Source of the DNA: an uncultured Draconibacterium sp.
GTDB taxonomy: Bacteria > Bacteroidota > Bacteroidia > Bacteroidales > Prolixibacteraceae
Assembly: GCF_913060805.1 (NCBI RefSeq)
Contig: NZ_CAJXTC010000039.1
Location: 1 to 45,684 of the forward strand
Length of the DNA stretch: 45,684 nt
Direction: 5' to 3'
Numbering within the stretch: position 1 is the first letter of the stretch; every line of letters begins with the position of its first letter. The translations under genes and the position numbers were made by a program. Under the pieces are notes generated by a model, which was not told the DNA's origin, ran no database searches, and saw nothing but the letters and a program-made list of their open reading frames with translations. This document shows, in pieces, positions 11,543 to 21,754 of this stretch.

Positions 11543-13108
11543 ATGAAGTATCAAATTCTACCCATTTTAATGGCAATTTTATTGACAGCCGGATTTTGTT
11601 TTACGGCTTGTACGCCTAAAACTAACAACAATCAGGAATTGCAGGTTAAAACCACACATGGTGATATATCTGGGAGTATTAACAACAGTGTTTATGCTTT
11701 TAAAGGCATACCCTACGCCAAGGCTGAAAGATTTATGCCTCCGCAGAATCCGGATGCCTGGGACGGAATTCGTGAATGTACAAACTTTGGGCCTGTTGCC
11801 AGACAAGTAGCACCATGGTATCCTGATTCCGTTCAAAACGAACAGGAACTGTTTAGTGTGAATGTTTGGACAAAGGGCCTTAATGATGGTAAAAAGCGCC
11901 CGGTAATGCTCTGGTTACATGGTGGCGGATTTCACATTGGCGCCAGCAACGATCCTATGACCTATGGTGAAGCCTTGGCAAAAAAAGGGGATATCGTTTT
12001 TGTTTCGGTAAATCATCGGTTAAATATCCTTGGATTTCTTGATTTATCTGCATGTGGCGAAAAGTATGCAAAATCAGCAAATGTTGGTATGCTCGACATT
12101 GTGAAAGCGCTCGAGTGGATTCAGAATAACATTGAGAATTTTGGGGGAAACCCATTTGATGTAACCATTGTGGGCGAATCTGGTGGCGGCGGAAAAGTAG
12201 GAACGCTTATGTGTATGCCGGCCGCCAAAGGATTGTTTCAGAAAGCAATTATTCAGAGTGGAACGCTGATTAATACCATGACCAAAAAGAAATCGCAAAC
12301 ACTGGGTTTGGCCGTTCTTGAAAAATTGGGACTTACTCCAAACGATGTTGAAAAACTGGAAACGTTTTCGTACGCTGAACTTGTAAAAGCCGGAAATGAA
12401 GCGATAGCTGAGATCTCTGGTCCGAGAAAGCCCGGTTCACCAACCATGTTTGGCTTTGCACCTTCGGCTGATGGTGATGTACTGCTGCAACAACCGTTCA
12501 GCCCGGGTTTTGCCGATATTTCAAAAGACATTCCACTTATGATGGGTTCCACTTTGAATGAGTTGATGCCCGTTGCATATGGCGAAAAAGACCTGACCCT
12601 GGAACAGGCACAAGAACGCCTGGCAAAACAATACGGTGATAAAACCGGGCAATTCGTAGAGTTGTTTGCAAAGGCATATCCTGATTATACACCGCAGGAC
12701 CTACTTTCTGTTGATAAGACTTTCAGACCTTATACTATACGAACTGCTGATGCAAGGGCAGTAGAGTCTGGCGCCCCATTGTATGTTTATTTTTTGGCAT
12801 GGAAAAGTGCTGTTGATAATGCCTCAAAAGGTTCTTTCCATGGTTTGGACATTCCTTTAGCTTTCAATACTGTTGATCTTAGGGCAGACTGGACCGGTAA
12901 TACCGAAGAAGCCTGGGAATTAGCTGATAAAATGAGCTCTGCTTGGATAAACTTTGTAAAAGCTGGTAATCCCAATGTTGAAGGAATGTTGCCAACGTGG
13001 GAGGAATACACTGCGGAAAACGGTGCCACCATGTATTTTGATAAGGAATGTAGAATTGTATATAACCACGACAGAGAATTGATGAATTTCATTAAACCTC
13101 TTAATTAG
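11543..13108 (+). CDS. Type-B carboxylesterase, lipoprotein (first copy)
   Basis: This 521-residue alpha/beta hydrolase is of the carboxylesterase type-B family. The N-terminus ends in a likely lipobox (FTAC, lipidated C23), so the protein should be membrane anchored. Visible family motifs are FKGIPYAKAERF, MLWLHGGGFHIG (oxyanion hole) and VGESGGGGKVG with nucleophile S213. E340 in TLNELM is the probable acid, and the catalytic His is H433 in SFHGLDIPLAF. The family cleaves carboxylic esters of very varied substrates. Placed at the head of an esterase island in a xylan-type locus, it may remove acyl or phenolic groups from sugars. It lies 26 bases after the GH3 gene. The substrate is unknown. 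Confidence 0.88.
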   Translation: MKYQILPILMAILLTAGFCFTACTPKTNNNQELQVKTTHGDISGSINNSVYAFKGIPYAKAERFMPPQNPDAWDGIRECTNFGPVARQVAPWYPDSVQNEQELFSVNVWTKGLNDGKKRPVMLWLHGGGFHIGASNDPMTYGEALAKKGDIVFVSVNHRLNILGFLDLSACGEKYAKSANVGMLDIVKALEWIQNNIENFGGNPFDVTIVGESGGGGKVGTLMCMPAAKGLFQKAIIQSGTLINTMTKKKSQTLGLAVLEKLGLTPNDVEKLETFSYAELVKAGNEAIAEISGPRKPGSPTMFGFAPSADGDVLLQQPFSPGFADISKDIPLMMGSTLNELMPVAYGEKDLTLEQAQERLAKQYGDKTGQFVELFAKAYPDYTPQDLLSVDKTFRPYTIRTADARAVESGAPLYVYFLAWKSAVDNASKGSFHGLDIPLAFNTVDLRADWTGNTEEAWELADKMSSAWINFVKAGNPNVEGMLPTWEEYTAENGATMYFDKECRIVYNHDRELMNFIKPLN

Positions 13109-13155
13109 TCGAATAAGGTCATTCGTGAATTATGTAAATAACTGGGATTAATATT

Positions 13156-14328
13156 ATGAAAAAGAAAAATCTAATAATTTCATTTATCTTTTTGATGGCA
13201 GTCGGGATCTGTACCGCACAAACGTCGTCGGAAGTAGTTGAGGATTTTAAACCCTCAACAGTGAATCAACCCGGAAAGGAATACCCGATGGTGAATTCCG
13301 AAGGACGGGTACGCGTTCAAATTTCTGCGCCTGAAGCAGAAAGAGTGCAACTAGATATCAGCGCAGTAAAATACGATTTGGTAAAAGATGAAAACGGTGT
13401 GTGGACCGGCGAATCGTCACCACAAGACGAAGGTTTTCACTACTACCAGCTTTGGGTTGACGGAGCTGCTGTTCCCGATCCAAACAGCCTGTATTTTTAC
13501 GGAGCCAGCCGATGGGGAAGTGGTATTGAAATTCCGGCGCACGACCAGGAGTTTTATGCCTTGAAAAATGTTCCGCACGGCGAGGTACGCGAGCTTCAAT
13601 ATTTCTCGGAAAGCAACAATACCATGCGCAGGTGTTTTGTTTACACGCCTCCGGGTTACGACGAAAATCCTGAAAAACGCTATCCGGTGTTGTACCTGCA
13701 ACATGGTGGTGGCGAAAACGAAACAGGCTGGTCGAGCCAGGGACACGCAGGTTTGATAATGGACAACCTGATTGCCGAAGGAAAAACCGTTCCATTTATC
13801 ATTGTTATGGACAACGGAAACTGGGCAATGCCAAGGCCACCGCGTAACCGCGAAGGTGGCGAGCGCCCGCGCACATGGCCACCCGAAGGTTGGGCCGATG
13901 GTTTTATGAATACCTTGCTGAAAGATATTATTCCGCTAATTGATGGAAAATACCGCACCCTGGTTGATGCCGAAAACCGTGCCATGGCCGGATTGTCGAT
14001 GGGTGGAATGCAAACACGTGTGATAACACTGGCCAACCCCGATGTGTTTTCGCATGTGGGAATGTTTAGTGGTGGCAGCATCACCATGGAAGACATTGGG
14101 CAAAATCCTGATTTTAAGGAAAAAGTAAAACTGCTTTTCGTCAGCTACGGAAGCCGCGAGATAGAAAATCCGCGCCCTGGACCATGGGGAGATCCAAAAG
14201 AAAATACCGAAGCACTTAAAAAGGCCGGTATAAACACCCATTTTTATGTGTCGCCCGAAACTGCCCACGAATGGCAGAGCTGGCGCCGCAGCCTTTATCA
14301 GTTTGCACCTTTATTATTCAAAAACTAA
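13156..14328 (+). CDS. CE1-type esterase with N-terminal CBM48-like domain, paralogue 1
   Basis: This 390-residue protein has a signal peptide ending GICTAQ. An N-terminal Ig-like/CBM48-type domain (about 40-140; [24 protein letters not shown]) precedes an esterase-D/CE1 alpha/beta-hydrolase domain (about 150-390). Motifs are [35 protein letters not shown] in outline, nucleophile S281 in AGLSMGG, and catalytic H371 in TAHEWQSW. The acid position after the last strand is E335 in YGSRE, where Asp is usual. Relatives with this layout include feruloyl and acetyl xylan esterases in xylan loci. It is most similar to paralogue 3 at 15620, not to its nearest neighbour. A palindromic repeat lies downstream. 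The ferulate, acetate or other substrate cannot be told. Confidence 0.88.
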
Positions 14329-20830: not shown

Positions 20831-20863
20831 TTATAGAAGTATAAATCATAAATCAGAATTAAA

Positions 20864-21754
20864 ATGAAGAAAATTCAAAGAACAGTATTGTTATTCGTTG
20901 CCATAGTAGCAATATCGATTAATAACATTACAGCACAGGAAAGTGCTTCACGAGTGGTTGAAGACGGCGGAACCGGCGAATACAAAGCCATTATGATTTC
21001 TGAGCCATCGTTGGCAACACACACCGTTTTCCGGCCACAGGATTTAAGCGTTTTTGGCAAGAAAAGCAAATTGCCAGTTATTGCCTGGGGAAACGGAGCT
21101 TGTGCCAACTCGCCATGGGAGCACATTAACTTTCTGAACGAAGTGGCGTCGCACGGATTTTTAGTGATTGCCATTGGCCCGATGCCGGCAGAAGGCGAAC
21201 GTGGCGGTGGCCGTTCACAATCGTCGCAGTTAACCGATGCCATTGACTGGGCTATCGCGCAAAACAGCGACAAAAACAGTCCGTATTACAAAAAAGTAGA
21301 TGTGGAAAATATTGCCGTAAGCGGAATGTCGTGCGGAGGGCTGCAAACCCTTGAAATGGCACCCGACCCACGTGTAACAACAGTGGTGGTGTGCAATAGC
21401 GGTGTTTTACCAACTCCGGGCGGAGGTATGCCGGGAATGCCGGCTTTGGTAAAAGACGACCTGAAAAAGTTACATACACCTACGCTCTACCTTTTGGGAG
21501 GCGAAACGGATATTGCCTACAATAACGGAATGGACGACTACAAACGTATAAACCATGTGCCGGTATATGTGGCAAATTTGGATGTAGGCCATGGCGGAAC
21601 GTATCGTGAGCCACACGGAGGCGAATTTGCAAGAGTGGCTACAGCCTGGTATCAGTGGCAAATGAAAGGCGACAAAGAAGCATCAAAAATGTTTGTTGGC
21701 GACGACTGCGGTTTGTGTAACGATGATGAATGGAAATTTGAATCGAAAAATTAG
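20864..21754 (+). CDS. Secreted compact alpha/beta hydrolase, probable esterase
   Basis: This 296-residue protein has a signal peptide ending NITAQ. The alpha/beta-hydrolase core has a likely triad S156 (SGMSCGG), D216 (GGETDIAY) and H243 (DVGHGGTY). The size and order of elements resemble dienelactone-hydrolase or cutinase-like enzymes. Cysteines are frequent: one in GNGACANSP, one next to the nucleophile Ser, one in VVVCNSG, and two in the C-terminal tail DDCGLCNDDEW. The tail seems to be a conserved feature of a subgroup but I cannot name the family. It closes the esterase island and is followed by a hairpin and a 311-base gap. An acyl- or phenolic-ester substrate from plant cell wall is an inference. 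Confidence 0.75.
   Translation: MKKIQRTVLLFVAIVAISINNITAQESASRVVEDGGTGEYKAIMISEPSLATHTVFRPQDLSVFGKKSKLPVIAWGNGACANSPWEHINFLNEVASHGFLVIAIGPMPAEGERGGGRSQSSQLTDAIDWAIAQNSDKNSPYYKKVDVENIAVSGMSCGGLQTLEMAPDPRVTTVVVCNSGVLPTPGGGMPGMPALVKDDLKKLHTPTLYLLGGETDIAYNNGMDDYKRINHVPVYVANLDVGHGGTYREPHGGEFARVATAWYQWQMKGDKEASKMFVGDDCGLCNDDEWKFESKN

Follow-up and report, generated by a model that had tools for sequence, protein, structure and literature searches.

An island of eight consecutive esterase-like genes in a predicted xylan utilization locus of Draconibacterium, and an esterase-only locus in the same genome

Feruloyl and acetyl groups keep enzymes from breaking down plant xylan, and why some bacteria keep many esterases is poorly known. 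Here we describe an island of eight consecutive esterase-like genes in a polysaccharide utilization locus (PUL) of an uncultured Draconibacterium sp. The window, that is, the whole stretch of DNA analyzed (45,684 nucleotides), is all of contig C39 (NZ_CAJXTC010000039.1) of a 5.48-Mb genome. At positions 11543-21754 eight consecutive open reading frames (ORFs), all on the + strand and separated by gaps of 3-163 bp, encode apparently exported hydrolases, referred to as E1 to E8 in gene order (Table 1). Pfam matches above the curated cut-offs place two of them in COesterase (PF00135), five in Esterase (PF00756) and one in PETase (PF12740), the best PF12740 stretch of E8 spanning residues 86-168 only. 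Since the whole genome has just 31 PF00756 matches, five in a row within 6 kb are not random. Folds were assigned from sequence matches, and export and anchoring from a motif scan and a reading of the N-termini by eye; lipobox-like motifs were found in E1 and E7, and none in the other six esterases or in the upstream gene of carbohydrate esterase (CE) family CE6 type; these seven seem to have ordinary signal peptides.

Coordinates and Pfam families agree with the initial annotation of this DNA, which had described eight esterase-like genes of three families (two, five and one), a ninth, CE6-type gene at 5260, now confirmed by its SASA domain, and a xylan-type PUL around them, as the Pfam families of the surrounding genes indicate too. 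Its division into membrane-anchored and soluble enzymes also stands, with two predicted lipoproteins and six soluble proteins. The placement among carbohydrate esterases holds for five of the eight genes (six of nine with the CE6-type gene); the type-B carboxylesterases E1 and E7 and the PETase-like E8 have an esterase fold, and we take them to lie outside the CE families of CAZy.

The five CE1-type paralogues (E2-E6) share pairwise identities of 32-60%, and the serine of the GLSMG motif, the histidine and a Glu/Asp at the acid column are intact in all of them. The acid residue was located by alignment to E4, whose E330 corresponds to E332 of Bi1039. Over the active-site loop, which in E4 comprises residues 217-232, mean identity was 12.8% between paralogues and 91.6% inside orthologue groups, where the lowest pair (65%) belongs to E2. 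The corresponding values are 40.6% and 94.5% for the remaining catalytic domain and 37.8% and 94.7% for the N-terminal domain; here the orthologue filter of at least 80% identity raises the within-group values, and counting gaps as mismatches lowers the loop value between paralogues. Five old copies with five conserved loops favour different specificities. E2-E5 align over nearly their full length with solved chains in which a CBM48 domain (CBM, carbohydrate-binding module) precedes CE1, which may indicate a CBM48-like N-terminal domain, and E6 aligns from residue 51.

Among proteins of solved structure, E4 is closest to BACINT_01039-CE1 (Bi1039-CE1), which, in the available excerpts of its characterization, set acetyl groups free and hardly acted on feruloylated oligosaccharides (PMC7815789). 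The labels Bi1033 and Bi1039 are opposite in the excerpts of PMC7815789 and PMC8040265, and the activities measured in the former were followed. E2 and E3 score best with wtsFae1A, and E3 also matches NF041944 with 604.7 bits, under a cut-off of 1200 that is set for the full bifunctional protein. Judged by these relatives, our best guesses are that E4 is an acetyl-xylan esterase and that E2 and E3 are feruloyl esterases. The best-scoring solved chain of E5 is DmCE1B_ct, whose plant-wall target is called elusive in the excerpts of PMC8040265. The same chain matches E6 weakly, and E6 is 82% identical to P0224, a protein of 665 aa carrying both PF00756 and a CE6-type PF03629. The tannase-like feruloyl esterase structure 6mly was absent from the complete match lists of E2-E6. 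Among the matches listed for the three other proteins, the best-scoring solved chains were the carboxylesterase 5a2g for E1, 8s6d for E7 and 9hl5 (4.5e-22) for E8; the matches of E7 include a fumonisin B1 esterase, and those of E8 are alpha/beta hydrolases and PET-hydrolase-like proteins.

Each of E1-E8 is under purifying selection. Compared with congeners, the median ratio of non-synonymous to synonymous substitutions (dN/dS) was 0.05-0.13 for each of the eight genes, 0.06-0.13 for the neighbouring glycoside hydrolase (GH) genes of families GH3, GH8, GH67, GH97 and GH127, and 0.17 for the CE6-type gene, all from orthologues of at least 80% identity (two for CE6 and for E1, one for GH127; the E5 of genome G024, just below this limit, was excluded). 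Decayed copies are ruled out by the intact catalytic residues of E2-E6 and the low dN/dS of all eight genes.

Table 1. Features of the window (positions on the forward strand).
Feature	Position	Strand	Evidence
Putative CE6-type (SASA) acetyl esterase	5260..6099	+	PF03629 111.5 bits, cut-off 24.8; ordinary signal peptide by eye
GH3 with CBM6-like insert, immediately before the island	7705..11517	+	Pfam
E1, type-B carboxylesterase, predicted lipoprotein	11543..13108	+	PF00135 282 bits; lipobox-like FTAC
E2, CBM48-CE1-type esterase	13156..14328	+	PF00756; 6rzo (wtsFae1A) 451 bits
E3, CBM48-CE1-type esterase	14492..15616	+	PF00756; 6rzo (wtsFae1A) 508 bits
E4, CBM48-CE1-type esterase	15620..16762	+	PF00756; 6ne9 (Bi1039-CE1) 604 bits, residues 15-380
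E5, CBM48-CE1-type esterase	16773..17945	+	PF00756; 7b5v (DmCE1B_ct) 341 bits
E6, divergent CE1	17964..19154	+	PF00756; 7b5v (DmCE1B_ct) 188 bits
E7, type-B carboxylesterase, predicted lipoprotein	19265..20830	+	PF00135 387.5 bits; lipobox-like MNAC
E8, PETase-like alpha/beta hydrolase	20864..21754	+	PF12740 36.5 bits, cut-off 28; ordinary signal peptide by eye
GH97, GH67, GH9, GH43-CBM6, GH95, GH8, GH51 (remaining xylan enzymes)	22009..35536	+	Pfam
Hybrid two-component system regulator (HTCS)	35842..39756	+	Reg_prop, HisKA, HATPase_c, Response_reg, HTH_18
SusC/SusD pair, SusD truncated by contig end	40639..45684	+	Pfam

The island recurs in congeners, and its gene order is not unique to one assembly. 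A match to E8 was found in 11 of 41 genomes, namely our own, 10 of the 24 congeners and none of the 16 genomes that belong to the same order but to different families. For nine of these ten congeners a long stretch around E8 was retrieved; in the tenth (G015) E8 is on a contig of 5.3 kb. Eight of the nine (G002, G009, G020, G008, G005, G013, G024 and G012) have an island of 7-9 esterase genes with GH3 on one side and GH97 on the other, and in four to five of these eight the fetched stretch has extra esterase genes upstream of GH3; in the ninth, G017, an E8-like gene (76%) lies apart from an island made of E1-E4 only (L054). The neighbourhoods of E3 in G100 and G101 also show the island with E8, while the contigs of G014 and G015 end early and show E2 and E3 only. 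Altogether, the island with E8 is present in 10 of the 13 congeners inspected, which were chosen for having E8 or E3. An assembly artefact or one-off gene order is ruled out by this synteny and by partial islands in other genera.

The membership of the island varies. The exact order E1-E8 is found in our genome, G008 and G013, and the other six of the first eight genomes have no E1; in its place five of them have an extra CE1 of 397-399 aa (70-71% identical to E2), and G005 has none. Moreover, G009 is without E2, G100 is without E1 and E7 and has a second E2-type gene, and G012, G024 and G101 add a CE1 (44-45% to E2) and a TAXI-like protein. Outside the genus, G060 has E2, E3, E7 and E8 at 85-95% identity together with an extra CE1, Mangrovibacterium lignilyticum has E2-E4, and a Bacteroidales metagenome-assembled genome (L058) has the E2-E6 types at 69-84% and a further CE1 at 45% before its contig ends. 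In Breznakibacter and Proteiniphilum one to three of the genes are scattered. In other genera, partial islands (L059, and L095 of G060) hold relatives of E3 or E4 that are 87-94% identical. Sequences so similar outside the genus suggest that parts of the island moved horizontally. A tblastn search against plasmids returned 70 records, all below 60% identity. E8 or E6 as an invention of the genus is ruled out by the E8 in the island of G060 and by at least 7542 homologues of E8 and at least 7235 of E6.

Besides the CE6-type gene, the genes before the island are DUF3237, GH127, GH43, GH51-like and GH3 (Pfam). The window ends within the second gene of a SusC/D pair, and in the coordinates of G002 it ends at 63569, while contig C62 of our genome starts at 63840; because the two adjoin in this synteny, C62 most likely continues the PUL. 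It matches the second SusC/D, GH10, CE15 and 641-aa SASA genes of G002, the GH10 counterpart being 91% identical, and the GH115 gene of G002 has no match on C62. The whole locus fits glucuronoarabinoxylan as substrate and holds eleven putative esterase genes (the eight and CE6 in the window, CE15 and SASA on C62). Promoter and terminator scans gave no clear internal stop, with 16 terminator-like sites against 13.8 expected in shuffled sequences.

Two details of gene structure were also observed. E3 and E4 share a reading frame, the stop of E3 being followed by one codon and then by the ATG of E4 (15614-15622), and long frames (759-762) in G009, G013 and G101 suggest the same arrangement there; this may be an old CE1-CE1 fusion or its precursor. 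The CE6 gene encodes 279 aa in our genome, whereas G002 and G009 have a relative of 629 aa that reaches far beyond it at the C-terminus; the N-terminal part of the G002 protein is 83% identical to ours.

We read the island as the de-acylation module of a large glucuronoarabinoxylan PUL, in which the CE1 copies would be specialized by acyl group or position, and we give this reading a probability of about 0.75. The locus would then be an expanded form of the esterase-genes-enriched (EGE) PULs described in 2021; the available excerpts of that report give this name to PULs in which the carbohydrate esterase genes, known or putative, exceed two (PMC7815789). For its regulation, the location of its enzymes, their specificities and the order of attack we propose that the HTCS would switch the locus on, that GH8 and the GH10 of C62 would cut the backbone, and that SusC/D would import acylated oligosaccharides. 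The two predicted lipoprotein carboxylesterases and the six soluble exported esterases would strip the acyl groups, which would let GH43, GH51, GH67, GH3 and GH95 finish the oligosaccharides. The five CE1 genes would have arisen by old duplications; each copy has kept its catalytic residues and a conserved loop of its own, so that the five most likely differ in the acyl group or position they attack.

Several points weigh against this reading. Divergent loops show divergence and not the identity of a substrate, and Pfam CBM_48 was not called in any of E2-E6, where the CBM48-like domain is deduced from alignment to solved chains. The families of E1, E7 and E8 comprise members that mostly act on non-carbohydrate esters. 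Most genus members are without the island marker: E3 (E <= 1e-150) was found in 15 of the 37 sampled, and in 28 of the 101 genomes of the whole sample, at 94% identity or more in 13 including our own. The proposed mechanism, for its part, is independent of genus-wide presence. Among 11 island-bearing congeners only three have E1 (G008, G013 and G017), nine have E7 and ten have E8, so that not all island members are essential.

The same three genes could be accounted for by a mixed-substrate locus, in which the CE1s act on xylan and E1, E7 and E8 on other plant esters met in litter, such as cutin or suberin oligomers, lignin esters or phenolic glycosides. Their membership of PF00135 and PF12740, the solved-chain matches that include a fumonisin B1 esterase (E7) and alpha/beta and PET hydrolases (E8), and the CE15 on the continuing contig, which points to lignin contact, would all suit this possibility. 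However, E7 and E8 are kept in most island-bearing congeners and are under purifying selection like their neighbours, which fits xylan-acting enzymes also, and we regard mixed substrates as possible but clearly the less probable explanation. A case for simple dosage is that island membership differs between species and that the size of the CE1 array varies greatly elsewhere in the genus, as tandem amplification for more enzyme or for condition-dependent expression might produce. But the paralogues, which in this view would do the same job, are just 32-60% identical, against about 90% or higher for the majority of orthologue pairs, and the loop is alike among orthologues and unlike from one paralogue to the next. 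We regard such redundancy as unlikely. Type-B carboxylesterases are broad enzymes, and the chief task of the esterases might be the detoxification or unmasking of acylated sugars or antibiotics and not the use of xylan; with the island set between GH3 and GH97/GH67 and with close relatives of xylan-acting CE1s inside it, we consider this very improbable.

A second island in the same genome is more surprising than that of the window. Twelve of the 31 PF00756 matches lie between C5:68710 and C5:86163, and all 22 ORFs of at least 120 aa in C5:60990-92117 (L005, L006 and L007) could be assigned. They comprise an ECF sigma factor, FecR, SusC, SusD, the 12 PF00756 proteins, two carboxylesterases, a secreted amidohydrolase, a TAXI-like protein, a beta-lactamase-fold hydrolase and a beta-propeller, which makes 14 alpha/beta-hydrolase esterases in total, and no glycoside hydrolase is among these 22 ORFs. 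A marker carboxylesterase of this locus (E <= 1e-120) was found in 22 of 101 genomes, including 18 of 37 within the genus. We then compared C5-type arrays in ten genomes. G013 has 14 CE1-type genes and two carboxylesterases with their own SusC/D, G101 has six and four with SusC/D, and G105 has nine and one without SusC/D; the locus is reduced in G002 and G005, in the latter to a single carboxylesterase. Flanking genes on one or both sides are shared by seven of the ten (G013, G105, G005, G002, G009, G024 and G101) and differ in G008, G046 and G062. The esterase-only state is not universal, because G062 and G008 have a GH3 gene inside the set or next to it, and G046 has a GH65-type gene close by. 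PF00756 totals reach 45 in G013, 31 in our genome and in G009, 30 in G101 and 21 in G007, and range over 3-31 in a sample of 60 family members (our own counted as 30 there). Many of the 45 in G013 lie in separate clusters on contig C1, at about 2.88, 3.02, 3.08 and 3.56 Mb.

The TAXI-like protein links the C5-type and the xylan islands. At E <= 1e-30 it is found in five of 101 genomes, always inside an esterase island. In our genome and G013 this is the C5-type island; in G012, G024 and G101 it is the xylan island, where the gene sits between E7 and E8. Most island-bearing genomes are without it. It scores 73.7 with the TAXI model, under the cut-off of 84.35, and matches Pfam NMT1_3 above the cut-off. 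One of the five TAXI-like solute-binding proteins is at L067:15777-16835, with relatives in our genome, G012, G024 and G101. The presence of this protein suggests that a released acid may be bound or taken up. An orphan protein without a TRAP permease is not supported, as a full-length DctM match was found in all five genomes searched, away from the islands. PF05870 (ferulate decarboxylation) has no match in our genome. From the gene content we tentatively propose two kinds of acyl-removal loci, the C5 locus perhaps importing and stripping a substrate that is richly acylated or ester-linked and could be used with hardly any glycan cleavage or none. Such a substrate might be phenolic or tannin-like esters, or acylated oligosaccharides that other PULs leave over, and the TAXI-like protein would capture the acid set free; we hold this to be rather doubtful. 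If true in function, the C5 locus would extend the PUL idea from glycosidic to ester bonds. In the window, five CE1 paralogues of one fold with five different conserved loops offer a ready panel for the study of acyl and position specificity.

Compared with known systems, the locus resembles the EGE PULs as they appear in the available excerpts of PMC7815789. Those of B. intestinalis, B. cellulosilyticus and B. oleiciplenus have 5, 4 and 2 putative esterases, against nine in our window plus CE15 and SASA on C62. Several exported CE1 and CE6 proteins, GH43, GH3, HTCS and SusC/D occur in both, E4 is a close relative of the Bi1039-CE1 encoded there, and the five CE1 genes and one CE6 gene of the window bring our locus under the EGE definition. 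It is, however, differently built. According to the same excerpts, EGE PULs are typically induced strongly by complex arabinoxylan and little by simple arabinoxylan, and attack the backbone by GH43, unlike PULs bearing GH10; the B. intestinalis one has three GH43 and one GH3. Instead of a GH43-based attack, our locus has GH8 in the window and GH10 on C62, and it differs from the EGE PULs so described by GH67, GH97 and GH95 as well, by five adjacent CE1s, by two type-B carboxylesterases and by the PETase-like gene.

Other precedents share parts of the design. PUL 17 of Dysgonomonas mossii, in the excerpts of PMC8040265, is likewise a glucuronoarabinoxylan PUL (GH8, GH10, GH43, GH51, GH67, GH115 and others) whose CE1 and CE6 enzymes differ in function, and its DmCE1B_ct is the one with which E5 scores best; three CE genes were studied there, one a CE1-CE1 fusion, whereas our CE1s are separate genes. 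In B. ovatus and F. johnsoniae, acetyl-feruloyl esterases that fuse CE6 to CE1 (PMC7110780, in part) show the same pairing in xylan PULs, and the E6 relative P0224 carries a CE6-type domain, but in the window CE6 and E6 are individual genes with about 12 kb between them. BD-FAE, which was discovered via PULs and cleaves both feruloyl and acetyl esters of xylan, is presented in the excerpts of PMC8165983 as distinct from other characterized CEs, and xylan PULs encode close homologues of it. The Pfam BD-FAE cut-off of 26.8 bits is exceeded by E1 (33.6) and E7 (39.5), while their COesterase scores are far higher. The esterase density stressed by the initial annotation exceeds the described examples compared here and is less new than was implied, given the EGE PULs and the Dysgonomonas PUL as these excerpts describe them, and its idea of a dedicated de-acylation system fits the esterase-only C5 locus better than the window. 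Our searches of the open-licence literature turned up neither an esterase island of Draconibacterium nor a SusC/D locus of the esterase-only kind; new beyond precedent are the size of the set, the loop pattern and the esterase-only SusC/D locus. The finding is real, and the cluster of the window, a larger version of one known from gut bacteria in a host that is a marine-sediment bacterium, is best understood as an EGE PUL of increased size that some members of a single genus have retained.

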